A program made the translations under genes and the position numbers. From Catalinimonas alkaloidigena (lineage in GTDB: Bacteria; Bacteroidota; Bacteroidia; Cytophagales; Cyclobacteriaceae), in contig NZ_JAQFIL010000001.1 of assembly GCF_029504655.1 (NCBI RefSeq), positions 5,027,001 to 5,091,000 on the forward strand: DNA of 64,000 nucleotides. Reading direction: 5' to 3'. The notes under the pieces are model-generated. The model saw nothing but the letters and a program-made list of their open reading frames with translations. It was not told the DNA's origin and searched no databases. How positions within the stretch are numbered: position 1 is the first letter of the stretch; each line of letters starts with the position of its first letter. Of this stretch, positions 48,335 through 64,000 are shown in pieces.

Positions 48335-50701
48335 TCACTCACTCCGTAATGAATTCACCGGATTAGCCTGTGCTGCCTTCAGCGATTGTGTGGTCACCAC
48401 GATTAGCGCAAAGGTCAGGGCAAAAAGTCCAGTGATTGGAAAAATCCACCAGGCTACTTCCGTTCGGATAGGGTAGCGTTCCAGGTACATATTCAGCAGC
48501 CACCAGGCGATAGGTGCAGAGACCAGAAAGGAGATAATCACCAGCCGGGAAAAGTCTTTGGACATGATAGACACGATGCTCAGTACTGAGGCGCCCAGAA
48601 CCTTGCGTATGCCAATTTCTTTGGTACGCTGTTCCGCAGTGTAGGATGCCAAACCAAATAAGCCCAAGCCAGTGATGATAATCGTCAGTATGGCAAAAAG
48701 ATTCGCCAGTTTGCTGGTCAGGTTAATGGTCGTAAACTTCTTCTGAAACTCTTCGTCTACAAAGGTATATTCAAAAGGATAGGCAGCATTATACTGGCTG
48801 AAAATATCTTTTACCTCAGCCAGCGAAGCTTCCAGCGCTCTGCCCTTAGTCAGGCGGATGCTTACTGCATTCGTCCAGTCAGGGTCCAGGATCATGAACA
48901 TAGGCTTGACTTCCTGATAGGGAGAACCCATCATCACATCGTCTACCACACCAATCAGGGTACGCTTATCGCCCCACAAATCCAGTTGGGTACCAATAGG
49001 CTCCTCCAGCCCCATAATTTCCAGTGCTGCCTTATTGATGACAATAGCCGAAGTGTCGCTAACAAAATCTCGGGAGAAGTCTCGCCCCATCAGCACCTTG
49101 ATACCCATCGTCTCGGCATAATCGTATTCTGTAGCGATTGTCGTAAAGATCACGCGCTGGTCTTCCGGCTTACCTGGCCAGCCTACAAAATTATTGGAAT
49201 TGATCTGCGTAATAGAACTGTTTGAGCGGGTTACAGCTTCCACGGCACCACTTTGCAAGAGTTCCTGCTTGAGCACATCATAGTTTTTGCCTATCTCTTC
49301 AGTAAAATCTACTGTAATCAGGTTTGTCTGATCATAGCCCAACTGTCTTCCTTTTACCAGTTGAATCTGCTCGTAGATCACAATCGTACCGATGATAAGC
49401 AGGATGGAAAAGCCAAACTGTAAGGTCACCAGTACTTTTCGGGGCGTGCTGGCTTTTTTGCCGACTTTCACTTTACCCTTGAGTACCTTCACCGGCTGGA
49501 AGGAAGAAAGATAAAAAGCCGGGTAGCTTCCGGCAATCAGCCCGGTAAGCAATATTATGCTCATGGAGCATAACCAGAACAGACCGGAAGTATAATTGAT
49601 GGCCAGCTCTTTTTCTACTAAATCGTTATAAAGCGGTAACAGCAGTTGCGCTAACAGGATAGCAATCACGAAAGCCATAAGACTGATAAATATCGACTCA
49701 CCTAAAAATTGCCCCATGAGGTCAATCCGGCGGGAACCAACGCTCTTGCGTATGCCTACCTCTCTGGCTCTACGCTCCGAGCGGGCAGTCGCAAGGTTCA
49801 TAAAGTTGATACAGGCAATGATCAGAATAAACACAGCGATGATGGTAAAAAGGTTGACGTAATCTATCATGCCTCCTTTTTCTAGCCCGTTCTCAAATTC
49901 GGAATGCAGGCGCCAGCGCAGCATAGGATGCAAGAACAGCTCAGGTTTAAGGTCCTCCTCTCCATGCTCAATTAGTATATTTTTGATGCTACTCTCTACC
50001 GCTTCTTCATTCGCAGGATCATTCAACTCCAGAAATACCTGAAAGGAATAATTGCCCCAGTTATCTTCGTTCTCTACTACCCAGGGACTTGCCTGCCGCC
50101 ATTGGGAGTAAGGGATAAGGAAGTCAAACTCAAAAGAAGAATTGCTGGGCACATCCTTCAGGATACCGCTCACCTTGAGGTCACTTTTGTCATCTACCCT
50201 GATAATCTGGTTGATAGGATCTTCATCGCCAAACAACGCTTTAGCTGTTGACTCTGTGATCACGATAGCGCTGGCATCATCCAACACGCTAGCCGCATCA
50301 CCATAGAGTAATGGAAACTCAAACATCTCCAGAAATTCCTCACCCACATAATAGCCCTCCTTCATGATGGGGTTTTCATCCACGTTAAGCAGGTGTTCAC
50401 CACCCCAATTCGTTACCACTGCGTTTTTGATGTTCACATCCGCATCTTTCATTGCCTGATACGTAGGCAAAGGCACAGAATTCCATGAATTGACCTTTCC
50501 ATCAAACTCCGCATTGACCATCAGCTGATACAAGCGATCTGATTTAGGAATAAAACTATCGTAAGAAGTCTCATCAAACACCCACAGCAGTATCAGAATG
50601 CTACAGCAGATACCGATGGAAAGTCCTGCAACATTGATGAAAGAATACACACGATTCTTCAGCAGGTTACGAATGGTAACGAGGAAATAGTTCTTGAACA
50701 T
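48335..50701 (-). CDS. MacB/FtsX-type ABC transporter permease (788 aa)
   Basis: This membrane protein has the duplicated layout of the Bacteroidota MacB-like permeases: TM helix near residue 20, a large MacB_PCD periplasmic domain, three TM helices with the coupling segment R-A-R-E-V-G-I-R-K-S-V-G, a second periplasmic domain, and three more helices with T-K-E-I-G-I-R-K-V-L-G. The last residues A-N-P-V-N-S-L-R-S-E are the usual family ending. Such proteins transmit ATPase motion across the envelope in export of peptides, antibiotics or lipoproteins. No ATPase gene lies beside it, so its partner is elsewhere. A candidate operator with three C-G-T-A-C-A boxes lies upstream (50964-51000). Confidence 0.93.
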   Translation of the reverse strand: MFKNYFLVTIRNLLKNRVYSFINVAGLSIGICCSILILLWVFDETSYDSFIPKSDRLYQLMVNAEFDGKVNSWNSVPLPTYQAMKDADVNIKNAVVTNWGGEHLLNVDENPIMKEGYYVGEEFLEMFEFPLLYGDAASVLDDASAIVITESTAKALFGDEDPINQIIRVDDKSDLKVSGILKDVPSNSSFEFDFLIPYSQWRQASPWVVENEDNWGNYSFQVFLELNDPANEEAVESSIKNILIEHGEEDLKPELFLHPMLRWRLHSEFENGLEKGGMIDYVNLFTIIAVFILIIACINFMNLATARSERRAREVGIRKSVGSRRIDLMGQFLGESIFISLMAFVIAILLAQLLLPLYNDLVEKELAINYTSGLFWLCSMSIILLTGLIAGSYPAFYLSSFQPVKVLKGKVKVGKKASTPRKVLVTLQFGFSILLIIGTIVIYEQIQLVKGRQLGYDQTNLITVDFTEEIGKNYDVLKQELLQSGAVEAVTRSNSSITQINSNNFVGWPGKPEDQRVIFTTIATEYDYAETMGIKVLMGRDFSRDFVSDTSAIVINKAALEIMGLEEPIGTQLDLWGDKRTLIGVVDDVMMGSPYQEVKPMFMILDPDWTNAVSIRLTKGRALEASLAEVKDIFSQYNAAYPFEYTFVDEEFQKKFTTINLTSKLANLFAILTIIITGLGLFGLASYTAEQRTKEIGIRKVLGASVLSIVSIMSKDFSRLVIISFLVSAPIAWWLLNMYLERYPIRTEVAWWIFPITGLFALTFALIVVTTQSLKAAQANPVNSLRSE

Positions 50702-51579
50702 AGCGGCGAGGTAGTTTAGTGGGGTAACTCAAGCTTTGGTAGAAGGTAACAGATAATTGAAAATAAAATCCTCTCACTCCTCAGATGCAAAAACATTTAC
50801 AAGAAGTTGCACCTCTTTCAACTCGGCAATCATAAAAGTCAAACATTGTACCGCTCCGCACTTTCTTAAGCATAGCATCAGCCAAAAGCCCCTATATAGG
50901 CCTTTGGTGGTTGATTAAATAAAAAATGATCCATATGGTTCATTTGCTCAAGTCCTCTGAAATCGTACAAAAACGTACAGCACTTGTTCGTAAGCGTACA
51001 CTCGCCCCAAGTCATTCATACACTCTTTTGCAAAGCCTGAAGGATAGTTTTCTATGTTTGTCACCCAGGAGAGGTCTTTTCCGTTAAAAGCAACAAGTGA
51101 ATTCAGCGAAGCTAGCTTAAAGTCAGGGTAGCAAGGCAGCATTTTCACTTTCACTTTCCCCCCCCTCTTTTAACAAGTTTAAACAAGATCCCTCCTGAAG
51201 GACAATTGCTTTTCCGCGCAATTAACGTTTAGCATTTTTTATGTACGCCATCTCTGCACTGCTGCTAACTGACATTTTTACGGCCGATTTTTCTGCTCAT
51301 GCATTTGACAGTACACTTTACCTCTATCCCTCACACGACATAGGGTCTGGCATATCGCAGGATGATACAGGCAGCCACGCCTGAGAAATATCAAGCTTAC
51401 CGAATTTACCTATCGCTCCGACAGTACGATAAAAACCACCACCCCTTAGTCTGGAGTAAGAGACTAATTTAACCGGAAAAAGACCAAGTTTTGATAAGCC
51501 GTTCTTTTTACTGTATTTAGTTTCTATTCCTTTTACCCCTAAGCACAGCATTTACTTTATGCTGCTCGATTCACTACCA
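50702..51579. other. 878-bp intergenic region upstream of the permease gene
   Basis: No gene is supported here. Two short minus-strand frames (50948-51154, 51324-51551) have no recognisable motifs and are most likely chance. The main structure is the triple C-G-T-A-C-A element at 50964-51000. The rest (51160-51330) is A/T-rich and may contain the promoter of the permease gene or relics of earlier genes. Confidence 0.5.
50964..51000 (-). promoter_or_regulatory. Candidate operator: three C-G-T-A-C-A boxes in helical phase
   Basis: The hexamer C-G-T-A-C-A occurs at 50964, 50974 and 50995. The offsets of 10 and 21 bp keep all three on the same DNA face. It lies about 265 bp before the permease start. 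That it binds a regulator is inference. Confidence 0.35.
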
Positions 51580-52428
51580 TTAGGCCAGGCTACTCCTCAC
51601 TTCTTTTGCCTTCATCAGTTCTACCGCTTTGAAAATAAGAATGATTTCTGCCAGTTCTGCCGGTAGTAAAGCCATCAGTCCTAAAGGGGATAAGAATACC
51701 GTCAGAAAAAGTAAAGCTGCGATGATTTCAAAAACACCGGCTACAGAAGCAATGGTACCTAAAGACTTTTGAAGCCTGAACAGCGCGAGACCATACACAA
51801 TGCCTATTCCCCCCAAAGTAATTATGGCTCCGAATAGTACCAGTTCACGTTGAAGAGGGGCATAAAAGATAGAGACAATGTCGTACCCCAGGATAAGGGT
51901 GTTGAGTCCTATCAGAATAATCGATATTACTTTGAGCAGATAATTACTGAACAACCCAGCAAGAATCACAAACCCACGCATAAAGAACACATAGGCGATA
52001 AGCACAAATATTTTGATGCTGACATATAGGGTACTGCCTACAATCATCTCTCCATCAGTAAAGCGATAGTATTCAACGATGCTTTCTGGTATCCCCAGAA
52101 TAAAGTAAGCGACACCAAATATCCAGGCTATGTTTAGCTGCTTCATCAGAAAGCCGGAGGGCTGGCTGAGGTCCAAGTCTCTTAATAAAAAACTCTTCAG
52201 GGACAATGTCTTCACATCCTCTTCTTCCTGCTCCGCTATTTTATCCAGATCGGCACCCAGGGCTAGCAGTATGGTTTTTAGGGTATAGCTTCTGGGCGTT
52301 ACCTCGCCGGATTCTATTCGCTGTATGGTCCGTACACTTATGTTACACATTTCTACCAGTTCTTCCTGCGTAAGCCCTTTTGCCTTTCTTAGATCTGCTA
52401 TTTTTCTACCTAAATCTGGTTGCCTCAT
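51580..52428 (-). CDS. XRE-type HTH regulator fused to a membrane domain (282 aa)
   Basis: The first ~65 residues form a Cro/C1-type helix-turn-helix (I-A-D-L-R-K-A-K-G-L-T-Q-E-E-L, then S-V-R-T-I-Q-R-I-E-S-G). After an acidic linker, residues ~95-275 contain about five to six hydrophobic helices (for example I-K-I-F-V-L-I-A-Y-V-F-F-M and G-G-I-G-I-V-Y-G-L-A-L-F). It is thus a membrane-bound transcription factor, a layout known in Bacteroidota. The membrane part could sense an envelope signal; no ligand is suggested. It lies 879 bp upstream of the permease gene on the same strand and may regulate it, but the gap argues against one transcript. Confidence 0.85.
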   Translation of the reverse strand: MRQPDLGRKIADLRKAKGLTQEELVEMCNISVRTIQRIESGEVTPRSYTLKTILLALGADLDKIAEQEEEDVKTLSLKSFLLRDLDLSQPSGFLMKQLNIAWIFGVAYFILGIPESIVEYYRFTDGEMIVGSTLYVSIKIFVLIAYVFFMRGFVILAGLFSNYLLKVISIILIGLNTLILGYDIVSIFYAPLQRELVLFGAIITLGGIGIVYGLALFRLQKSLGTIASVAGVFEIIAALLFLTVFLSPLGLMALLPAELAEIILIFKAVELMKAKEVRSSLA

Positions 52429-53087
52429 AAGGTATAAGTATTCGTTGATGACTCTTTAGATGAATAGTATTGCTGAAAACCTGAGCGATCGCTTACAGAT
52501 AGGCTGCATCCCTACGCTTTATGTGAAACGCTATAGATTCCCGGCTGCTCTGAGGTAAGCGTTCCAGTAAATATAAGACACTGCTAAGTATATCCTCCCC
52601 TATACCCCCATATAGTGCCCCTTCATGGTAGGAAAGCTTAAGACCTGACACATACCATGCGCCTGTAAAGTTATTTTTGTTGGGCAAGGGTATACCTTTC
52701 TTCTTTCCATATACTACCACTTCCCAGTTATTGGTAAGGAAACAGATGCTCCTTTCATCTGCTTCCTGCGGCCAACAGTACTTTCATCGGATTCTAATTT
52801 TGATCTTTCAGGCAATTTTAACTTCTGACGTAAATTGTACAAGGCATGGCAAATAACTTCACCCGACATTCACCCGACATTTGGCATATCACTTGATTAT
52901 CAACAAATCTTCAGTAAGTGATAAAAGACTTCAAGTATAAGCCGTTTACTTATGACAGGTGATGGTTTTGACCCTTTACAGTAAATAACAAAAGGTGAAT
53001 CATTACTTTTTTTACGTAGCATATAGCCTTTACCCCCTGATATGGCCAGAACAGGTCACTCTTCTAGGTGTACGTACCATCCTAACT
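52429..53087. other. 659-bp intergenic region with a short tandem repeat
   Basis: No gene is supported. A minus-strand frame of 75 codons (52493-52720) has no recognisable features. A perfect tandem duplication of the 11-mer T-T-C-A-C-C-C-G-A-C-A lies at 52858-52879. The XRE gene promoter should lie near 52430-52500; no clear element is visible. Confidence 0.5.
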
Positions 53088-55694
53088 TTACAGGCCATCT
53101 GTATTTTTTAGCGCTCTTGATTTTGAATAGGCTTCATCGGCAGATTTATAGTCCTTCAGGCCATCATATGCCAGGCCTAAATTGTCATAATACACAGCGT
53201 TTTTAGGGTTCAAGGAAATGGCATTTTTATAGAAACGAATTGCTTCAGCATGTTTGCCCATGACATAATTTGCGATGCCTGCCCGGTTGTTGAGCGCCTC
53301 ATCTTCAGGGTTAATCTCCAACCCTTTCAGATATAGCGATAATGCTTCTTCATGCGCCACCTCATTTTCAAAGACATAGCCCAGATAATTATAGGTGTTG
53401 ATATTGTTAGGGTCTGACTTCAGGGATTTCTGTAATGATTGTTTGGCCTCTTTCCATTTTTTTTGCCATATCAGTGACAGGCCAAGGCCGGAAAGTGAGA
53501 TTGCGTTATTTTCATCTATTTGCGAAGCTTTCCTGAATGTCCGCTCCGCATCTTCCCATCTTTGCAAAGCATTATAAGCCAGGCCTAGATTGTTGTAATA
53601 CAACACATTTTCAGGTTCGCGCTGAACGGCTTCCTGATAGTTAGCTACAGCTTTCTCTCCTTTGCCGATATTATGGTAAAACACTCCCAGACGATTGTAG
53701 TAAGTTCCTTTGGTATTTTCTATTTCCAGCGCCTTACGATACATCTGCTCGGCATTTTCATAGTCACCCATTCTTTCGTAAGCCACTCCAATGTTCTCAT
53801 GGTAGACAGGTTCTCCAGGATTTAATGCCAAGGATCTGGAAAAACATTCGGCAGCCTGCTCGTACTCTCCTTGTTTTAGATAAAACAATCCCAAATCATT
53901 GTGGCGAAATGGATTATCAGGAGAGTCCCGAATACTGGTCGTCAATAATTCATGTAGTTCTTTGTCTTTCTTTTGCTTTTCCAAAATTACCCTCAGTGCG
54001 TTAAAGTACTTAGACTCATTCGGTCTCAGCTCCAGTGCCTTACGATACATTTTTTCTGCATTTGCAGCATCCTCCATTCTTTCGTAGGTCAGCCCCTTAT
54101 TCTCAAAATATACCGGCTCTTCGGGATTCAGGCTTATGGATTGGGAAAAGCATGCCACAGCCTGCTCCAACTTTTTTTGCTTTAGATAAAACAGCCCCAA
54201 ATCATTATGTAACAAAGGATCTTTGGGGGAGTTGCGAATACTAAAGGTCAACAATGCTTTCAGTTCACTATCTTTCTTCTGCTTTTCCAAAAGCTTTCTG
54301 AGGGAATTATAATACTTGGACTCGGTAGGCTTGCAGTTCAGGGCTTTCTGGTAGTAGGTTTGGGCATCATCGGGGGTATCCATTTTTTCGTAGTTAATAC
54401 CAAGCAAATGGTATATCACATCCGGACTGCTGTCACGCAGTTTCAGGCACTTAAGATAGCTTTCAATGGCTTTTTCCCACTGCCCGGTCTGTTCGTACAG
54501 ATAAGCGATGCCCCAGTAGCTTTCAAAAATCTCCTCTCCTACCCCAAACGCCTTATGGAAGTGCTGTTCGGCTTCTTCGTATTTTGTATCATAAGTCAGA
54601 ATATAGCCGATATCAATATGTGCCAGGCTCAGGTCCGGTTTGCTTTGGATAGCATTCCTGTAGTACCGGGCAGAGCTTTCGTACTCTCTTGACAGGGAGT
54701 AAGCAAAGCCTATGTCACGATAGCAGTTGTAGACGATATTTTCATAAGAATGTTGCTCTACCAGGATGATCTGCAGGTGGTCAATCAATGCTTTGACTTT
54801 TTCCTTTTTCTCCTCTATCCGGTTGGCGTAACCGTAAAGTATCAGTTTGCGGCGATAGCTCCCGCTATTCAGGAAATTCATGTGCAGCGCGTCATCGTAC
54901 CATTGCTCAGCGGTCTCATATTTAGATTCATCACGATAGCTATCTCCCATGAGCAGGTAAGTGTTCAGGTTCTCGGGCTCCTTCTCTATCGCCTGCAGAA
55001 AGTGCTCCCTGGCTTTGTCGTAGTCCTTCTGTTTTAAATGATATTCTCCAATAGCACTTTGAACATCTGCGCTATTATGCAACTCCCTGGCCTGATTAAA
55101 GTAAGCCAGGGCGCCCTCATAATCCGGCAGGGGGTGATACAGCTCAATCTGTCCCAGATAAACAAAGAAACTGCTTCGTTCTTTCAGCGTTAACTTTTCA
55201 TTTTGAGCCAGCTCCAGATATTCAATACCAGCGGCCAGCCAGCGGCCATCCAGGATGTTAAAGTTTAGCTTACGGTATCGCTCTATTTCCGGCTGATGCC
55301 CGGTAAACCCAAAAGGAGTTTCACACAGATGTCCGTATACGTAGCCATCCCAGTGCACGAGCGCCTCTACAAACTCTTTCCACCATAAATCGTAGGCCTG
55401 CTCCATATCGCCTTCCTTACACAATCGCGTGACCTGATCTGCCGTAACAGTGGCCAGGGCAAGAAAATATTCATGCTGAAGCTTTACCAGATATTTGATA
55501 TACTCGGGCCGGTCATACTTATTCCTGTCCAGATGTGATACATCCCATACTGAGTGAGGCTCGCATTGCCTGAACTGGGCAGCCAGATACTCCAGCATCT
55601 CTGCCAGCACAATCATCTCTATTTCCTGATCAAAACAGGCCTCCTGGTACAAAGGAGCAAGCAGAGAACGAATATGATGTTCGCTAAGATTCAT
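53088..55694 (-). CDS. Large TPR-repeat protein of the CHAT operon (868 aa)
   Basis: This soluble protein has no signal peptide. Residues 1-170 form a helical domain without known motif (W-W-K-E-F-V-E-A-L-V-H-W-D-G-Y-V-Y-G). From about 175 to the end the chain is almost all tetratricopeptide repeats, roughly 17-19 units such as G-E-Y-H-L-K-Q-K-D-Y-D-K-A-R-E-H-F. Residues 459-560 and 561-662 are near-identical 102-residue blocks, a recent duplication of three TPRs. TPR arrays bind other proteins or peptides. Its start codon overlaps the CHAT stop in a T-A-A-T-G junction, so translation of the two is coupled. Inferred role: sensor or scaffold that controls the CHAT protease, by analogy with TPR-CHAT pairs in other systems. 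Confidence 0.92.
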   Translation of the reverse strand: MNLSEHHIRSLLAPLYQEACFDQEIEMIVLAEMLEYLAAQFRQCEPHSVWDVSHLDRNKYDRPEYIKYLVKLQHEYFLALATVTADQVTRLCKEGDMEQAYDLWWKEFVEALVHWDGYVYGHLCETPFGFTGHQPEIERYRKLNFNILDGRWLAAGIEYLELAQNEKLTLKERSSFFVYLGQIELYHPLPDYEGALAYFNQARELHNSADVQSAIGEYHLKQKDYDKAREHFLQAIEKEPENLNTYLLMGDSYRDESKYETAEQWYDDALHMNFLNSGSYRRKLILYGYANRIEEKKEKVKALIDHLQIILVEQHSYENIVYNCYRDIGFAYSLSREYESSARYYRNAIQSKPDLSLAHIDIGYILTYDTKYEEAEQHFHKAFGVGEEIFESYWGIAYLYEQTGQWEKAIESYLKCLKLRDSSPDVIYHLLGINYEKMDTPDDAQTYYQKALNCKPTESKYYNSLRKLLEKQKKDSELKALLTFSIRNSPKDPLLHNDLGLFYLKQKKLEQAVACFSQSISLNPEEPVYFENKGLTYERMEDAANAEKMYRKALELRPNESKYFNALRVILEKQKKDKELHELLTTSIRDSPDNPFRHNDLGLFYLKQGEYEQAAECFSRSLALNPGEPVYHENIGVAYERMGDYENAEQMYRKALEIENTKGTYYNRLGVFYHNIGKGEKAVANYQEAVQREPENVLYYNNLGLAYNALQRWEDAERTFRKASQIDENNAISLSGLGLSLIWQKKWKEAKQSLQKSLKSDPNNINTYNYLGYVFENEVAHEEALSLYLKGLEINPEDEALNNRAGIANYVMGKHAEAIRFYKNAISLNPKNAVYYDNLGLAYDGLKDYKSADEAYSKSRALKNTDGL
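53709..54320 (-). repeat. Tandem 306-bp coding duplication in the TPR gene
   Basis: Two adjacent 102-codon blocks (54015-54320 and 53709-54014) encode near-identical triple-TPR modules, each beginning S-K-Y-[YF]-N-[SA]-L-R and ending M-Y-R-K-A-L-E. Their strong similarity relative to the other repeats in the protein indicates a recent in-frame duplication. Confidence 0.85.
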
Positions 55695-57094
55695 TATATC
55701 CTATCATGTGGGTTAAGTTGATCGCGCGAAGCGGCGGACATAGCCGGCTCAGGGGTGCGTACGTTCTCTTTTGATACTTTTTTCGGTTCCAGTCTACCTT
55801 TACACCGGTCTTTAATACAAAATTCACGTCCTGAATCATAGCTGTACTCAGTACCACATACCTGACACACCAATTTGCGGTTTTGCCGCTCCTGGTCCTT
55901 ATCCTCCTTTTCAGGAAAGAAACGAATCGGTGTAACCGTAGAGCTAAACAATACCGGAGTACCAAACGAATTATTGTTATAGTGCTCCAGCTCAATATCA
56001 GGATTACTCTTACGGTACTCGCATCCCAGAAAAACTCTGCCGATGGTGACAGCCTGAAAGATATCTTTTCCCGACAACAGAGAATGATAGAATTTGGCAA
56101 AGAAAGCAATTGAGGTATCGGGCGTTACTTCATTTTGCATAGCCAGCACAAAAGGGATGCCTTTTTTGATGAGGCTCACTGCCAGCCCTTTACCCATATT
56201 ATTGAGCTGTCCGCTCTCACAGGCCTGCATCACTACCACCCGTGGCTGTCGGTACTTCTGGTTTGTCCCGAAGAAGTTTTCAAAGAAGTCGCTGCGTACC
56301 CACTGCTTTTGTCCATTGTTATCAATAAACGCGATCTCGGGATCTTCTTTGTTCATGCGGGCATGGCCATAAAAATGTAATATATAATCCCCATCAATCA
56401 GCGCATCAAGCGTCTTCATCTCCTGGATAAAGTTTTTTACGCTTGGGTTCTCCAGGCGCCAGGTCTCTATCATCTTATCCCCCTTATCATTCACAAACGC
56501 TTTGCCCAGGGCTTCAAAGCTGTCTTCAAATTTATCAACCTCAAGAAAGTCTTTCTGCGGATTGCAGATTACCTTCACCACGATCAGCTTATTCTGATGC
56601 TTGGGAGAATAATCAGCAGCTATCTCATTGTCATTGGCAATGTAGCGGATCAGGTCAAACTTGAGGTTTTTCTGGGCACCAATGTAAAAGGGTTCAATGC
56701 GTTTGTCGGGATTACGTTTGATTTGCAAATACTCCCAGGGCAACATCGCTAGATCGTAAGCATCCTTTTCAAATTCCAGCACGATGATCCCCCGGGTGTC
56801 ATCACGCAGAATCACCGATAGCTCATTGTAGACAAAGTTTCGGGCATCCTGTTGGTCAAATAAACACAAAAGTTTGTAAAGGATGCTGCCCAGAAACTCA
56901 AAGTCATTCTTCTCAAATATGCCTTCTACCCGGGTTTTGTTCAACGCCTTATGAAATATCCTACCAATCGTAAGCTCCAGCCTGATACCTTCTTCTCTGA
57001 AAGACGCAGGTGCGGATGAAGTATCAGATTTGATAAAAGTAATGGTGTCTTTGCTAAACTTGATACGCAATATTCTAGCTTTACCTAAAGCCAT
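55694..57094 (-). CDS. CHAT-domain caspase-like cysteine protease with C-terminal zinc ribbon (466 aa)
   Basis: The CHAT domain spans about 165-385. The catalytic histidine lies in I-L-H-F-Y-G-H244-A and the catalytic cysteine in V-M-Q-A-C292-E-S-G, both intact. The upstream M-L-P-W-E-Y-L segment (118-123) is the usual start of the CHAT-associated N-terminal region. After the protease comes a linker and a C-terminal zinc ribbon with C410-x2-C413 and C426-x4-C431, absent from most CHAT proteins. CHAT proteases are relatives of caspases and separase and act in controlled cleavage, including bacterial defence. The gene begins 7 bp after the 362-aa gene and its stop overlaps the TPR start, so the three are one operon. 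A cleavage target is not visible. Confidence 0.93.
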   Translation of the reverse strand: MALGKARILRIKFSKDTITFIKSDTSSAPASFREEGIRLELTIGRIFHKALNKTRVEGIFEKNDFEFLGSILYKLLCLFDQQDARNFVYNELSVILRDDTRGIIVLEFEKDAYDLAMLPWEYLQIKRNPDKRIEPFYIGAQKNLKFDLIRYIANDNEIAADYSPKHQNKLIVVKVICNPQKDFLEVDKFEDSFEALGKAFVNDKGDKMIETWRLENPSVKNFIQEMKTLDALIDGDYILHFYGHARMNKEDPEIAFIDNNGQKQWVRSDFFENFFGTNQKYRQPRVVVMQACESGQLNNMGKGLAVSLIKKGIPFVLAMQNEVTPDTSIAFFAKFYHSLLSGKDIFQAVTIGRVFLGCEYRKSNPDIELEHYNNNSFGTPVLFSSTVTPIRFFPEKEDKDQERQNRKLVCQVCGTEYSYDSGREFCIKDRCKGRLEPKKVSKENVRTPEPAMSAASRDQLNPHDRI

Positions 57095-57101
57095 AGATGT
57101 T

Positions 57102-58190
57102 TTATTTTTTCACATTCATGAGTACAGAAAGAAGTTCTTTGTCCATGCTTTTCTCCCACGTATCACGCTCGTCCGGTGCCAGCTGTTCATCTCCCGATAG
57201 GGGGCGGCGCACGTCTATCATCGCGCTTATTTCCTTTCGGAACTCGCCTACCTGCAGTTGCACCTGATCACGTGTCAGGTCAGGACTCATCATGACTTTA
57301 TTGAGGAGGGAAAACAGCCTTGCGTTTAGCAGCTTCATCTGCTCATCCTCAAGTTTTCCGTTGATACCGGAGATAAACTCCTGCATTTTCACAAAATCCT
57401 GGTAATAAGGTAGTATTTCTACATCGCTTCTGTTTTCCGCTGCCAGTATGCTGTAGAGCACATAATCTTCTGCCCGGTAAGGCGTGGCCTCCGCGCTGGA
57501 TGTGCCATGGAAAAGCTTCCCATGTTTCACAAAAAACGCTTCGGCATTGATGTTTTCTTCTGCCTCGTTGAGCAGCGCAAAATAGCCCGGCTTAAAACCC
57601 TCCTGGGTATCCGGGTTGAAGGTGATACCATGTCCTATCAATGGCTCTACATCTTTTGAATCTACCAGGTCCTCATAACTGTCCAGCACAATTTTAGCTA
57701 CCTGCGCATAAGGGAGCACTGCGGTGCCGAAGCTGCCCAGGTAAGTCTGCGACGTGCTCTCTATCAGATTGAGTATCTTTCTGAGGTAATTTTGTTTCAG
57801 CGCACGCCCCAGCACCACCGTAACTGAGAATTTACCTCCCCTGTAGGGATGCAGGCCCGCCACTCTGGTATTTTCTATGATCATACCGTCAGGCAACTTC
57901 TCAATCTTACCTTCCAACATCTTCCGGCCTACAAAAAAGGGCACATCCTGTATTTTACCATCATACAAAAAACCGGTAGAAACAAATACACAAGGCTCCC
58001 AGGTTTTAAACCATTCTCTGCTGTAGGTGAGGTACATCTGATTTACCGTCACTTCAAAATACTGCTTGTTTCTTTGAAATGGCACGGCTACCCTGAGCTG
58101 TGGCTCTATGTTGGTCTGAGGGATGATGATCCGGGAGGGGCGAAAGGTCTCAGCCCCTTTGATTTTTCCCCATAATTCTGATAGTCCCAT
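57102..58190 (-). CDS. Unrecognised first protein of the CHAT operon (362 aa)
   Basis: I do not recognise the family. The protein is soluble, with no signal peptide or TM helix. The N-terminal ~180 residues look beta-rich (Q-L-R-V-A-V-P-F-Q and Y-F-E-V-T-V-N-Q-M-Y-L), with a charged region M-L-E-G-K-I-E-K-L-P-D-G-M; the middle contains G-H-G-I-T-F-N-P and F-F-V-K-H-G-K-L-F-H-G-T, and the last ~110 residues are alpha-helical and charged. It is the first gene of the operon, 7 bp before the CHAT gene, so it is probably a partner or substrate of the protease. It does not show a gasdermin-like pattern that I could defend. Start: ATG at 58188-58190. Confidence 0.8.
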   Translation of the reverse strand: MGLSELWGKIKGAETFRPSRIIIPQTNIEPQLRVAVPFQRNKQYFEVTVNQMYLTYSREWFKTWEPCVFVSTGFLYDGKIQDVPFFVGRKMLEGKIEKLPDGMIIENTRVAGLHPYRGGKFSVTVVLGRALKQNYLRKILNLIESTSQTYLGSFGTAVLPYAQVAKIVLDSYEDLVDSKDVEPLIGHGITFNPDTQEGFKPGYFALLNEAEENINAEAFFVKHGKLFHGTSSAEATPYRAEDYVLYSILAAENRSDVEILPYYQDFVKMQEFISGINGKLEDEQMKLLNARLFSLLNKVMMSPDLTRDQVQLQVGEFRKEISAMIDVRRPLSGDEQLAPDERDTWEKSMDKELLSVLMNVKK

Positions 58191-59071
58191 GATAATGATG
58201 GTCTGGGTTGATGGTTTTTATTTAGGTTTATCACATTCAGTCTGCCATACTAAGTGGGTTATAATGCTTTCTCTTATATAATATCATGATCAACACAGGA
58301 AACATTGGATACCTGCGTCTCAACCCAGACTGGCTATCGCCATATATTCAATAACTACCTTACTCACCATAACAATATAACTACAATTTTGGGGCTTTAC
58401 AAGCAGCAAAACCCGCCCTTTATGCTACTGGCAGCGTGCCTAAAGCTATTTACTCTCCTCTTCTATTGGGAGGCTTCTTCAAAGCGACAATTTGTTTGAC
58501 CACCCCTTCCTTATGAATACCTTATCATAGCAATGGGAGCTTTTGGGAGTATCGGCTTACCTTCCCTCATCAGGCAACGGATATTGACCATAGGGACCTG
58601 CTGTAGCTGCATGGCTTCGGTAGAATCCTGCTCCTGATCTGCTCATGCCTTGTGGAAGGTCATCACATACTAATCTGCCTCGGCGACTCCTCTCTGCAAG
58701 TTCCGTTGCGGAATGACTGGAAAAAAGAGAAAGCTTCTCTCTTGTCATCCCGGAGGGATCTTAGCCATGCTGAAATTATATAGTTTGTTTGGTCACCAGG
58801 CTTAGTGCGGGGGAAGTGCATCGTGCGGACGCATTACAAATGTCCGGCGTGGAGTGCGCTCGAGGATTATAAAAAGAAAGCTCCACTCTACTCTCTACCC
58901 CCCTGTCATCCCGGAGGGATCTTATCCGTATTGAAGTAAAAGGAGAAGGTTGAGTATGATGATGATACCATGCAAGATAGTGCACATAGCAAACTTGCTA
59001 CAGGCTGGATGTTTACACCAAAAAAGCATTGCTACCCTATTCCATTTCCTGTATCTTAAATTGAAAAAGGT
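58191..59071. other. 881-bp intergenic region with dispersed repeats
   Basis: No gene is supported. The region lies between divergent operons (CHAT operon to the left, STAND cassette to the right) and should hold both promoters. It contains a 21-bp direct repeat (58743-58763, 58904-58924) with a small palindrome, a hairpin around 58700-58715 (T-T-C-C-G-T-T-G-C-G-G-A-A), and a G-C-A-T-T-A-C-A-A-A-T-G box at 58831 that recurs at 62873. Short frames here (58557-58748, 58776-58985) look like repeat-derived noise. Confidence 0.55.
58743..58924. repeat. Pair of 21-bp direct repeats, 161 bp apart
   Basis: The 21-mer beginning T-G-T-C-A-T-C-C-C-G-G-A-G-G-G-A and ending T-C-T-T-A is identical at 58743-58763 and 58904-58924. 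Its centre A-T-C-C-C-G-G-A-G-G-G-A-T is a 5-bp hairpin. It looks like a dispersed REP-like intergenic element. Confidence 0.75.
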
Positions 59072-59268
59072 ATGAAAGAAAATAAAGCGAAGATCAAAGG
59101 GGATGGTAATACGGTGTTTCAGGACATTAAGAAGTCCCGGATAGACACTTTTAAAGGTAAAGAAAAAACAATACTTCCACCATCATTGGTATTGTGATCG
59201 CCCTCGTCGGTGTGATTGTAACCATTATTGTAGGCTGGGAGGAAATACTAAGCTTTTTCGGTATATGA
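59072..59268 (+). pseudogene. Small EAD-like plus single-TM protein, split by a frameshift (65 aa if restored)
   Basis: From ATG 59072 the frame encodes I-K-G-D-G-N-T-V-F-Q-D and on to a run of six A residues (59163-59168), where it would drift out of frame. Read with one extra A (or a -1 slip) it continues into a 23-residue hydrophobic helix (I-I-G-I-V-I-A-L-V-G-V-I-V) and W-E-E-I-L-S-F-F-G-I, ending at TGA 59266-59268. The restored end overlaps the STAND gene start by ATGA, the mark of a coupled pair, so the frameshifted reading is very probably the ancestral one. The N-terminal motif matches that of the STAND protein, suggesting a homotypic adaptor; the TM helix would be the effector part. 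In the present sequence the intact protein requires frameshifting. Confidence 0.7.
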
Positions 59269-61538
59269 TTAATAAAGCATGCATTGAGGGTGATCATAAT
59301 ATTGTGATACAGGATGCCGATGGCTCCACCATTACTATTGATGCTAACAATACTAATGAGATACAAGAGAAGTTAAAGCAACTCAATAAGGAGCAGTTGA
59401 CCGCCGTGCAACAGTTACTGGATAAACATAGCGATGCGATTTTTAATCACATCAGAAAGCTTTTACAAACCTCTTTTCCCGATCAGCCTTTCCCCAAAAA
59501 TCTTACTGCCTATACCAGCATTGCTAAAGAAAACATCGTAGGAAGGGAAAAAGACCTAGAGGAACTACGCCGCCGTTTATTGGAAGATAACAAACTTTCC
59601 CTCATCAATGGCATGGGGGGCATTGGAAAAACCACCCTTGCTGCAGTTTATCTGAATACCTATAAAGATGAGTATGTCCACATTGCCTGGCTGACCATTG
59701 AAACTTCTTTAGAGGATGCTATTATTGCCAATCATGACCTCCTAACTAATCTAAAGTTACAGGATGTTTCACCTGAGGAATTACTCAATGCCTCCCTGAA
59801 CCAATTACGTAACCTGCATAGCTCCAAACCCAACTTACTGGTGCTTGATAATGCTACCGAACGACTGGCAAAACTATATGACCACTTACCCAAAGCCCCC
59901 CATTGGCATGTGCTAGTAACCTCCCGGGAAATGATTGAACTCTTCTCTGTGATGGAACTGGGCTTTCTGACAGAAGAGGAAGCCATCGCATTGTTTCAAA
60001 AGCACAACAGTAACTTTAACGAAGAAGAAACGAGAAGTTTTGTGCAGGATGTAGAATGCCATACTCTCACCATTGAGATACTAGCTAAGTCCGCGAAGAA
60101 AAATCGTTGGAATGCAGAAAAGATTAAACAAGCTATCAGCCTTGATGAAAAAGCAGGCATAGCCACCAGCCATAGTGGACATGAGAAAATAGACCGTATT
60201 ACCTCTTATCTGATACAAATATTCCAGTTGAGCAGTTTAGATGAGCAGGAAAAATATATATTGAAGCAGTTTACAGCATTACCCAACCAATGGATAGGCT
60301 ATGACTTGCTGACTAACTTATTACAAGTAGAACAATTGACCTGGAAAGAGGATTTTCCCGGAACATTAGAAGACCTTTACGAAAAGGGCTATCTGCTTAA
60401 GGATAAGGACAGCTACAAAATGCATCCGGTACTGGTAGAAGCTCTAAGCCCTCAGTTAAAAACTTCTGCTAATGAGTTAAAACTATTAATAGAAGGGGTA
60501 GCTAAACTTATTTCATATGATCAAGATAAAGATAGCCCAATTGATAAATCTACTTACATCCCTTTTGGAGATGCAATATTACAACATGCATCAGTTACCT
60601 CTACTCCTAAAATATCAGTACTACAAAATGATATAGGGATGCTGTACTATGTGCTAGGACAGTATGAACAAGCTAGAGATTTATTGGAAGATTCTTTAAA
60701 TGGAGATATAACTAGTTTTGGAGAAACACATCCGAGAATAGCTATAAGAAGGTCAAATTTAGGATTAATCTATAAGGAATTGGGAGAGTTTGAAAAGGCA
60801 CGTGAATTGTTTGAAAAGGCTTTACTTTCTGATATAGTTAATTTTGGAGCTTTTCATGCTAAGGTAGCAATGGATCAAGCAGGTTTAGGGTTAGTATATC
60901 ATGCTTTAGGGAGATTGAAAGATGCTGAAATATTATTAAATCAAACGTTAGAATATAATAAAACTAACCTTGGAGAAAAGCATCCCGCTGTAGCTTCAGA
61001 TAAATCAAACCTTGGACTATTGTATGCAGATATGGGACAGTTTGCTCAAGCCAAAAATTTACTAGAAGAAGCCTTATTGTCAGATATAGCAAACTTTGGA
61101 GAAAAGCATCCAAATGTGGCAATAAGGCAATCTAATTTAGGAACTATACATCATGATTTGGGTGAATATGAAAAGGCACTAGATTTACTAGACAAAGCTT
61201 TAATATCTGATTAAGAAAACTTTGGTGATAATCATCCTCTCGTAGCAACAAGGCAATCCAATCTAGCTCTTGTATATAGAGATTTAGGAGAACATAAGAA
61301 AGCTATGGAATTATTAGAAACTGCCCTAAAATCTACTACTGCAAATTTAGGGAATCAACATCCAAATGTAGCTATAACTTTATCAAACTTGGGCACTGTC
61401 TATAAAGCGATGGGGCTATATGCAAAAGCCAGAGAAGTATGGGTACAAGCCTATGATATATTTTGCCAAGTAGTTGGCGAAGATCACTTCCAAACTAAAC
61501 ATGTAAAGACTTTCCTTCAGCAAATAGAAGGAAAGTAA
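59265..61538 (+). pseudogene. NB-ARC/STAND ATPase with seven 42-residue TPRs, interrupted by in-frame TAA
   Basis: The frame starts at ATG 59265. The first ~30 residues carry the motif I-E-G-D-H-N-I-V-I-Q-D shared with the small protein upstream. Then come a helical linker, V-G-R-E (92-95), Walker A G116-M-G-G-I-G-K-T-T124, Walker B L-L-V-L-D195, and V-L-V-T-S-R-E (216-222), the NB-ARC set. From about residue 445 seven kinesin-light-chain-like TPRs of 42 residues follow. The frame is cut by TAA at 61212-61214 inside repeat 5 and then stays open in the same frame to 61538 with perfect repeats 6 and 7, so 757 codons is the ancestral length and 649 aa the present one. STAND proteins of this type act as stress or invader sensors; a truncated array may change or abolish ligand sensing. 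Confidence 0.88.
60606..61514 (+). repeat. Array of seven 126-bp TPR-coding repeats
   Basis: Seven 42-codon units share N-L-G-x-x-Y/H-x-x-L/M-G-x-x-x-x-A near their start and an F/L-G-x-x-H-P type turn at their end (last one G-E-D-H-F). The array is visibly more A/T-rich than the NB-ARC-coding part before it. Such arrays can expand, shrink or exchange units by recombination. Confidence 0.75.
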
Positions 61539-62150
61539 ATACTTTGTCTGCGTATCACAAGTATTGGCAAAGCATAGTGGTTAAGATTCCTTCGCCTGTG
61601 GCTACGGAATGACTGGGAAAAGTAGAACTCCCTTCAATGAGTATACTGCTGAGCCACTCTTTCCTCTGTTCTGTGCCCAATTACAAACCTGCTGCTAAAC
61701 CAGGGCGCTTCACCCTGGCCTTAGCTACTTTTTCTTTTAGCGACCTCCCCCTTACTGTAGGCTGAAGTATTCATTCCTAAAAGCAAATCCATAGGGCTTG
61801 GCCCTAAAGACAGTCTACCGGCAGGCTGCGTCAGCTGACTTGATGCTTCGGAAGTAATGTTCAGAGGCTAAGTCACCCGGCGGCGTAAGCTATACGTAGG
61901 GTTTTCCCATCCCTCCCACTGACTTTGTCCAGGAGACAAACCACTTAAAGGCTAAGCAACTGCTTTTTCTTCCCTTTATATACAAATAATACTTAGGTGA
62001 GATAGCAGATGAATGCTTCAAAAAAGAAATACAGTAGCGCCCCTTATTTGCCAGTTTTCTTCTGCGAACTGATGGTGTAAGGCAGTGCAGGGCCCCAAAG
62101 CGCTTACCACATCTTTCGGTAAATCATTATTAACATTAATTCAAAAGAAA
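61539..62150. other. 612-bp intergenic region with hairpins and repeat fragments
   Basis: No gene is supported. It contains C-G-G-A-A-T-G-A-C-T-G-G at 61605-61616, also present at 58709-58720; a hairpin C-C-A-G-G-G/C-C-C-T-G-G near 61700-61718; and other G/C-rich, palindrome-rich stretches (61800-61920) typical of Bacteroidota intergenic elements. A GTG start at 62085 for the next gene is possible but less likely than the ATG at 62151. Confidence 0.5.
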
Positions 62151-62795
62151 ATGAATCTGAAATCAGAAAGCAGTGTGCTGGAAGCTGCACAACTGGCGCT
62201 TTCAGCTACGGTGCGGGAGGAAAATGTCCGCCTGCATATGGAGCCTTTCGGGCTTACAGCTGCTTTGCAGCAGCAAGGTAATGAGCTGCTGGAGAAGGCC
62301 AAAAGTTGCCAGAGCAGACAAACGATTCTGTACGATGAGCAGTGGAGCATATCACAGCAGCTCAATGCCGAGTTGGATGCGACACATAGCCTGTTTAAAG
62401 AGCATGCCAAGGTAAGCCGTATGGCGTTTCGCAAAGAGCCTGATCTACTGCATAGTCTTAAGATAGAGCGCTTCGTAAAGCAGGCCTGGCCGCTGGTTCG
62501 GCAGGCGGAGTATTTCTACGAGCGGGTGCTGGAGCAGGAGCTTAACCTGCAGCCCTACGGCATCAGTAAGAAGGAGATAGAGCAGGCCAAGGCTGCGGTC
62601 AGGCGTCTGCTGGAACTGAAAGAGACCCGTATGCACAAGAAGGGTCTGGCAGAGAACTGTACGCAGGAAAAGAACGCGGCCTTCAAGGAGTTGCGCGACT
62701 GGGTAAGCAGGTTCCGCGCTATTGCCCGCCTGGCGTTTAAAGGCAATCCTCAGATGCTGGAGATCTTCGGCATACAGGTACTTAGCAAGGTGTAA
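62151..62795 (+). CDS. Uncharacterised helical protein with internal duplication (214 aa)
   Basis: I do not recognise the family. The ATG at 62151 is chosen over an in-frame GTG at 62085, since it is in a better context after an A-rich stretch. The protein is soluble and almost entirely alpha-helical. Residues 30-105 and 133-208 are two divergent copies of one module: each begins P-[FY]-G-[LI], has a heptad-patterned long helix, then an S/A-R-x-A-F-[RK] segment and ends with [LI]-x-[IF]-x-[IV]. It resembles small helical proteins common in Bacteroidota genomes with no known role. It lies 612 bp beyond the STAND gene on the same strand and probably has its own promoter. Confidence 0.75.
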   Translation: MNLKSESSVLEAAQLALSATVREENVRLHMEPFGLTAALQQQGNELLEKAKSCQSRQTILYDEQWSISQQLNAELDATHSLFKEHAKVSRMAFRKEPDLLHSLKIERFVKQAWPLVRQAEYFYERVLEQELNLQPYGISKKEIEQAKAAVRRLLELKETRMHKKGLAENCTQEKNAAFKELRDWVSRFRAIARLAFKGNPQMLEIFGIQVLSKV

Positions 62796-63114
62796 ACAAT
62801 TCGTCTGTTTCCTACCTCCCCTCCGCTTTGCGCCTGGAGATAGGGTATAAATGGGAACGCATTCCTTGCCGGGCATTACAAATGCGCTCCGGAATTATAA
62901 TGTAAGTCCCTGAACATTCCCCTGCTGTAGTTTTGCAAAAAGTAAAGCCATGGCAGGGGAATCTCAAATGAAAGCAACCACGCAATCCCTAAGACTTTTT
63001 CTTTACAGCTTCCCTCTTCTTTTTCAATCGTGCCCATATCCGAATATTTCTTTAGGAGTTCTTATTGCTATGATACGCAGCCCATACACCTCAGATTACC
63101 TTGTACAGGAGTAG
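62796..63114. other. 319-bp intergenic region with repeat box
   Basis: No gene is supported. The box G-C-A-T-T-A-C-A-A-A-T-G at 62873-62884 also occurs at 58831-58842, each followed by a short C-C-G-G type palindrome and a T/A-rich stretch, so it is probably a dispersed element. Confidence 0.45.
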
Positions 63115-63468
63115 TCAACTGGATATCTTCTTCAGCTTGTGTCTCAGGCGAAACATAAAGAAAGTAGGGACTAAGGCAATTTTATTACCATTCACCTCTT
63201 TGATCTTCCTGACCCGGGAGAGGTTGATGTGTATCACAAACCAGTCGGTATCCGTTGGGCTGACAGACTTCAAATCCACCGGAACCTTAAACTCAGTCAG
63301 GCCGAAGTGATAAAGCTCCGGTTGTCCGGGAAACTCAACATATTTGACGATCGCATTTCTCATTCCTATATCAGGATGAATCTGCAAGCCCTCTTTGGCC
63401 AGAATGAGCTTAAACTAATGAGCAAACTGCTCCTTTAGGTTGGCATTGATGTCTATGAGTACATCCAT
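63115..63468 (-). pseudogene. Broken regulator remnant, possibly AraC-type N-terminal part
   Basis: The minus-strand frame starts at ATG 63466-63468, meets TAG at 63415-63417 after 17 codons, then stays open to 63115 (an M at 63387 could restart it). The open part reads L-Y-H-F-G-L-T-E-F-K-V-P and S-P-T-D-T-D-W-F-V-I-H-I-N-L, a beta-rich pattern that reminds me of the N-terminal sensor part of some Bacteroidota AraC-type regulators; this is a weak recognition. No DNA-binding domain follows, so the gene is truncated at both ends in function. It lies just upstream of, and on the same strand as, no intact partner gene. Confidence 0.4.
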
Positions 63469-63575
63469 GACTGATGAAAAGCTACATCTGAATGCCAGTA
63501 TTCCGAGATAAGTCCGCGCATAGGATTTTACAAGACTGCCTTCTGCTTAATACCAGGCACGGGGCACCTGTAGTA

Positions 63576-64000
63576 TCACTCCTTCCAATCTATTACTATC
63601 TCCAGCGGTAGGTGGTCAGAGCCGATGAAAGGGCCTGTACCTCTTGCTTTCACCTCCACCCCTTCACTCAGCAGCGCATGGTCAATACTGACCGACAGGA
63701 AAAACCAGCGGGCATGCCAGCTGGGCAGCAGGCCGAAGCCCTGTCGGCTATCCCGCAGCTTCGTTCCCTCGCTGATCCGCTTAAAATTGGGTGAGAAGCT
63801 ACTGCAGTTGAGGTCGCCCAGCAGCAGCACTTCCTTTTCGGAGTCTTTTACCAGCTGATTCAGTCGGCTGAACTGCTCATTTCTGGCTTCAAACTGAAAG
63901 GCTCCTACCGGAGGTACGGGATGCGTACCGATGATTTGTAGTACCCTGCCCTCGTAACGAACATCACTGACAAGCGTAGGCATGTTAGCCTTGCTCAAGA
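63576..64000 (-). CDS. Endonuclease/exonuclease/phosphatase-family protein, 5' end beyond window
   Basis: This is the C-terminal ~140 residues of an EEP-fold metal-dependent phosphoesterase; the frame is open at the right edge, and the TTG at its apparent start is not a likely true start. Family motifs are complete in this half: I-G-T-H-P (metal/catalytic His region), L-L-L-G-D-L-N-C (metal Asp and Asn), S-I-D-H-A-L-L and the final G-S-D-H-L-P-L with the catalytic histidine. Members cleave DNA, RNA, phosphoinositides or other phosphate esters; Bacteroidota members of this kind usually have N-terminal TM helices, which would lie outside the window. The end is followed on the minus strand by the remnant at 63115-63468. 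Confidence 0.88.
   Translation of the reverse strand, partial: LSKANMPTLVSDVRYEGRVLQIIGTHPVPPVGAFQFEARNEQFSRLNQLVKDSEKEVLLLGDLNCSSFSPNFKRISEGTKLRDSRQGFGLLPSWHARWFFLSVSIDHALLSEGVEVKARGTGPFIGSDHLPLEIVIDWKE

Follow-up and report, generated by a model that had tools for sequence, protein, structure and literature searches.

A three-gene operon was analyzed in a stretch of 64,000 nucleotides from Catalinimonas alkaloidigena (NCBI RefSeq assembly GCF_029504655.1, contig NZ_JAQFIL010000001.1, positions 5,027,001 to 5,091,000 of the forward strand), referred to below as the window. The operon encodes a 362-residue protein (U362), a CHAT protease and a tetratricopeptide repeat (TPR) protein. Across related loci U362 was the constant part, as both the protease class and the presumed sensor change. 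The operon is read as one form of a modular conflict system gated by a protease, an enzyme that would clip the tail of U362 and free an effector, perhaps a membrane-acting one; confidence in this reading is evenly balanced.

The genes are tightly coupled on the minus strand in the order U362, CHAT, TPR (Table 1), and the three joined genes described in an earlier note on this DNA were borne out by the open reading frames (ORFs), the 7-base gap and the TAATG overlap. Pfam was scanned for six window proteins (51580-62795), with matches taken at E<=0.1. The second product had been called a CHAT protease with intact H244/C292, and this stood: it matched PF12770 (E=3.7e-12, residues 226-349, 46.7 bits vs. 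a cut-off of 24), its H244 (HFYGHA) and C292 (ACESG) aligned with those of relatives, and the PDB entry closest to it by sequence was 8tl0, which has a CHAT domain (E 0.027). The zinc ribbon ascribed to it was upheld in part: cysteines 410/413/426/431 form a C-terminal cluster (C-x2-C-x12-C-x4-C) that looks like such a ribbon by eye, but among the scanned CHAT relatives only that of L004 scored for a double zinc ribbon (E=0.0042, 17.6 bits, below the cut-off of 27.3). The TPR protein matched TPR_1 in 11 stretches (E=3.4e-83, Pfam). Its N-terminal ~170 residues showed weak likeness to relatives, and the non-repeat parts of the L004, L007 and L008 TPR proteins were clearly alike among themselves. 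The linkage of TPR to U362 appears weaker than that of CHAT, as outside the repeats the window's TPR protein is similar to the L004 and L007 proteins only at E=0.011 and E=0.040. Within the TPR gene a 293-nt stretch is duplicated (71% alike; 53725-54323), probably through repeat expansion.

Gene neighborhoods of U362 were read in 17 loci (the window, L003-L009, L013 and L027-L034), and a protease gene adjoined U362 or lay one gene off in 15 of them, 14 by Pfam. U362 is thus linked to CHAT, C14 caspase, EAD8-trypsin and papain-like proteases, which belong to clans CD (CHAT, C14), PA (trypsin) and CA (papain), while the presumed sensors were TPR, NB-ARC, NACHT, nSTAND1 or VMAP-MoxR. Conflict-system parts in these loci included EAD7, EAD8, EAD10, VMAP-C, MoxR, CoxE-type vWA and STAND NTPases. 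No protease was seen in L030 (near a contig end) or in L033, which lies on a conjugative plasmid of Prosthecochloris. Being closely related, L005 and L032 do not count as independent loci. The U362 relative in L034 came from a search with the L029 protein instead of the window's, and the 17 do not include a 61-residue U362 fragment in G130, near which no protease was noted (neighbors unscanned). The 16-member U362 tree gives no number of protease exchanges.

These neighborhoods bear on what the earlier note had proposed. Its check for conserved co-occurrence found all three families together in the window, L004, L007 and L008. What recurs, however, is U362 with a protease rather than the exact trio, CHAT with TPR being one version of this unit, and the place of the constant part falls to the 362-residue protein and not to the TPR-CHAT pair. 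The suggestion that this protein is a substrate or adaptor fits its position beside changing proteases.

Table 1. Features of the operon in the window and protease genes beside U362 in the loci read (MAG, metagenome-assembled genome).
Feature	Position or locus	Strand	Evidence or remark
U362 gene, 362 aa	57102-58190	-	ORF
CHAT protease gene, 466 aa	55694-57094	-	ORF; PF12770
TPR protein gene, 868 aa	53088-55694	-	ORF; TPR_1; presumed sensor or scaffold
Gap of 7 bases, U362 stop to CHAT start	57095-57101	-	
TAATG stop/start overlap, CHAT and TPR genes	55692-55696	-	
CHAT + TPR	window; L004 (MAG labelled archaeal); L007 (Verrucomicrobiales MAG)		
CHAT + TPR	L008 (Ktedonobacteraceae MAG)		CHAT split over two frames
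CHAT-NB-ARC-TPR in a single protein	L009 (Anaerolineales MAG)		Pfam
CHAT-like, 376 aa, one gene off beyond nSTAND1 gene	L031		H and C align by eye; no Pfam match
Two C14 caspases, one each side of U362	L003		
C14 caspase with NB-ARC	L005		
C14-EAD7 with NACHT-HEAT	L006		
C14 caspase	L032 (Pseudanabaena plasmid)		With VMAP-C protein, MoxR family ATPase and SAV_2336-related protein
EAD8-trypsin	L027, L028, L029		
Papain-like C70/C39	L013		302 bases from U362; signal-like start by eye
Papain-like C1	L034 (Sporomusa plasmid)		

To control for chance, CHAT was searched in 14 genomes; matches were found in 13 and stood beside U362 in five, which hold 8, 5, 1, 7 and 1 CHAT matches in all. The sole CHAT match of the assembly adjoins U362 in G774 (5.9 Mb) and G776 (5.6 Mb), and the window's genome (7.92 Mb, 3 contigs) has a single U362 and 8 CHAT matches. 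The product of the chances of a CHAT gene within 5 kb of U362 in all five genomes was ~6.6e-12, a figure for genomes and a family picked after the loci were seen. C14 was found in 8/14 genomes searched, and such genome-level counts can miss matches, as L006 carries C14 by hmmscan and none was reported for its genome (G773). The source contigs were also compared (35 U362 and 53 CHAT entries; the window's own and length-less entries dropped), and for 9/35 U362 entries the contig was exactly equal in bases to that of a window-type CHAT homologue (8164022 and 984827 bases among the shared sizes), whereas a shifted control gave 2 coincidences summed over 40 shifts. As size and source agree, such entries presumably lie on the same contig. 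Because related loci keep the arrangement and the contig matches so exceed the shifted control, the operon goes beyond chance. CHAT matches in three cyanobacterial genomes numbered 45 (G770), 36 (G772) and 32 (G943).

A first protein search returned 37 U362 proteins, the window's own (P0001) and 36 others, and a second, with a 31-row profile, returned 141, with member details taken from 120 of these matches. Two branches were distinguished. The near branch groups around the window protein. The second branch is large and shares 15-21% identity with that protein, and most of the sources named in it are cyanobacteria. Six columns are invariant in the 101-row alignment. The earlier description of the gene as unrecognized agrees with the profile libraries, as no convincing match was found in Pfam, NCBIfam, PADLOC or PHROGs. 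The window protein had no Pfam family at E<=0.1, the 37 members gave weak Pfam matches only (best E 0.006, in single members), and no relative was found in PDB by sequence (best E 0.24). Judged by sequence comparison, the family is real, and its spread is rare and sporadic. Named sources among the matches listed were Bacteroidota, cyanobacteria and single MAGs labelled Hodarchaeota and Deltaproteobacteria, to which the genome loci add Chloroflexota, Verrucomicrobiota and one archaeal-labelled MAG; three plasmids carry a copy. U362 was found in 2/390 genomes of the order (one being the 61-residue fragment), 2/395 of the phylum, 4/292 cyanobacteria, 4/301 Chloroflexota and 1/194 Verrucomicrobiota, counts that take in the window's genome and those used as centers. 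A second scan of the 292 cyanobacterial genomes, with a profile built from the branch linked to trypsin, returned the same 4 genomes, and in the order scan U362 was absent from the same-genus genome G372. A phage-borne origin was considered and rejected, with no relative in the viral contigs or phage records searched. Protease-gated conflict modules are already known. A literature search, which reached few subscription papers, gave no prior description of the U362 component, and U362 is not named in the available portions of PMC7159879, PMC8195603, PMC12799240, PMC10907252, PMC10028731 and PMC10989679.

An AlphaFold2 model of U362 (pLDDT, the predicted local distance difference test, 84) has a beta-rich domain (~residues 39-252) with a helical-hairpin insertion (134-177), helices (261-328), and then a linker (~329-343) and a C-terminal helix (344-360). 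Fold matches of residues 39-252 were weak and mostly to PI3K and other C2 domains, several of which (PI3K, cPLA2, AIDA and others) we take to be of C2 nature. A C2-like fold would point to the membrane as the place where U362 acts. Weighing against action at the membrane are the weakness of this match and the lack of a transmembrane segment in U362. The tail is conserved by branch. In the second branch SLxxI[MV]Q was found in the last 60 residues of 79/83 proteins among the matches listed and nowhere else in them; three of the 4 misses are shorter proteins, and the 3 members with known gene context are all beside EAD8-trypsin. In the near branch (36 proteins) L[SA]G occurs in the last 45 residues of 19/36 (window RRPLSG at 328) and W[EDK] in the last 30 residues of 24/36 (window WEKSMD at 345). 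A caspase-like D-x-x-D-[IL]-G or similar string in the tails of cyanobacterial U362 near C14 genes was not claimed as a cut site, because the members are kin and L006 is without the string.

In the proposed mechanism the TPR protein would sense or scaffold a trigger and then activate CHAT; in other versions the sensor would be NB-ARC, NACHT, nSTAND1 or VMAP-MoxR parts and the protease a C14 caspase, trypsin or papain-like enzyme, with U362 as the constant component. CHAT may cut U362 in the flexible C-terminal linker, which would remove or free the conserved C-terminal helix and unmask the C2-like beta domain with its helical hairpin, and the unmasked domain would act at the membrane or bind a next target. 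The system would probably serve cell suicide or phage defense. A bolder proposal, that U362 represents an undescribed class of protease-gated effectors, C2-like, membrane-seeking, held off by a tail and served by three protease clans and at least five kinds of sensor, is offered tentatively and is held to be clearly less probable than the general reading of the operon.

Close behind that proposal, and likewise on the unlikely side, comes the explanation that U362 is an adaptor or inhibitor, which docks the protease to a membrane or sensor or holds it inactive, the real substrates being host or phage proteins. TPR proteins often bind C-terminal peptides, C2-like folds often merely localize enzymes (the C2 matches of U362 being weak), and the predicted helix after the linker resembles a docking peptide. 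However, conserved contacts that dock clans CD, PA and CA should be harder to maintain than a linker cut by each. The nearly invariant tail motif of the second branch suits a cut or recognition site, though a docking site too. A substrate fits better than a docking adaptor because U362 is constant beside proteases of three clans.

Rather improbable is a cascade in which cut U362 releases a bound regulator, with transcription or signaling as the output and not membrane damage. The precedent is the TPR-CHAT protein Csx29, which cuts Csx30, an inhibitor of a sigma factor until cut (PMC10028731, in the portion available). That U362 is without a transmembrane segment suits this explanation, but no regulator appears as a constant U362 neighbor in the ORF lists, in which most ORFs were unscanned and small regulators not searched for. 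Ordinary regulated proteolysis in development or stress is given little credence; the wider window looks metabolic by eye (SusCD-like proteins, sulfatases, an ABC permease), yet the family is sporadic over phyla, occurs on plasmids, and shares several loci with EAD, VMAP, MoxR and STAND parts. Chance neighbors without shared function, a case that could draw on the small sample per phylum and the 2/17 loci missing a protease, were rejected with near certainty on the rarity of CHAT (single in several genomes), the 6.6e-12 product and the 9/35 contig matches, as the arrangement recurs in distant phyla with short gaps.

To our knowledge, substrates have been identified for few of the caspase-like proteases of bacteria. 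As a small constant partner of four kinds of protease, U362 is a direct candidate for one, and it offers a handle for finding further protease-gated immune systems. If the effector class proposed above is real, U362 would be a functional counterpart of gasdermin on another fold, spread across phyla of bacteria and perhaps into archaea. Should it act on membranes, a second fold besides that of gasdermin would have given rise to a death effector gated by proteolysis.

Further observations were made around the loci. Divergent from the operon, the Pfam scan placed an NB-ARC/TPR (STAND) gene at 59265-61214 (+), which may be decaying, since a TAA ends the frame at ~61212 and by eye TPR-like coding continues beyond. 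A PQLLE family protein (NCBIfam NF052641, E=3.4e-60) is encoded at 62085-62795 (+). Upstream of the operon, two intergenic 41-nt direct repeats (58734-58774 and 58895-58935, 80% alike, around TGTCATCCCGGAGGGATCTTA) look like a dispersed intergenic repeat. In L003 (2-1426 and 2750-4138) the C14 caspases that flank U362 differ, and one is convergent. The region 1763-14199 of L032 lies between IS66 and IS1634 transposases and holds VMAP-C, MoxR, the SAV_2336-related AAA_35/caspase protein, U362, a second caspase and an EAD10 STAND-like protein; the SAV_2336-related protein bears AAA_35 and a further C14, and no vWA domain was detected in it. Downstream in L029 are an AAA_5 ATPase and a CoxE-type vWA protein, and 7581-9809 of L007 was scanned with no match.

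Among known families and systems, the C2 superfamily resembles U362 through the weak structural match of residues 39-252, but U362 has the hairpin insert, an added helical part and a tail, and has no PDB sequence relative. The VMAP/MoxR-vWA, EAD and EACC1/EACC2 systems, in the available portions of Kaur et al. (2020, 2021), join one unchanging component to caspase, trypsin and STAND parts that can be swapped, and U362 is not named in those portions. The L032 plasmid locus places a U362 gene among genes for VMAP, MoxR and two caspases; no MoxR, vWA or VMAP gene was found among the six window proteins scanned. Unlike U362, EACC1 carries a transmembrane helix, and EACC2 and its caspase form one fused protein, as far as these sources extend. 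Craspase (type III-E) shares TPR, CHAT and a separate partner, which there is the substrate Csx30 (PMC10028731, portion available). Csx29 fuses TPR and CHAT, whereas the genes are separate here and fused only in L009 (CHAT-NB-ARC-TPR); and, as the earlier note had stated of CRISPR, no CRISPR-like array or repeats were found beside the operon within 50000-64000 of the window.

Close parallels also lie with Canu and the gasdermins. Canu (CanABC) and the nuclease-protease pairs of Hachiman, AVAST and Lamassu are described in the accessible part of PMC12799240 as joining one effector family, which is activated by cutting, to trypsin-like or caspase-family proteases. A caspase-superfamily protease is likewise found in the operon (CHAT here, C14 in relatives). 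The Canu effector, in that same part, is a nuclease of metallo-beta-lactamase (MBL) fold, while no convincing match to an MBL or a nuclease was obtained for U362 and its model is not MBL-like; a search for an MBL-fold pro-nuclease gave no match at E<=0.1 for U362 or CHAT, nor for the TPR protein among the best 25 of 36 matches. In the part of PMC10989679 available, fungal gasdermin genes adjoin proteases (subtilase ~60%, CHAT ~17%), often with TPR, ANK or WD40 repeats, and bacterial gasdermins are activated by dedicated proteases, kept off by a short C-terminal peptide and palmitoylated on a cysteine near the N-terminus (C3 in Bradyrhizobium). U362 differs in its ~360 residues, in a first cysteine at C67 in the window protein, which leaves the N-terminal cysteine feature without a counterpart, and in a model that matches C2 weakly. 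Gasdermin was not among the fold matches listed, which falls short of excluding that fold. The C-terminal blocking segment of gasdermins may correspond to the predicted linker and C-terminal helix of U362. Both families share with U362, which adjoins proteases of differing classes in 15/17 loci, a constant gene, there that of the effector, beside a protease that varies, as far as the accessible portions of these sources describe, and it is for this reason that the effector reading of U362 is likened to them.

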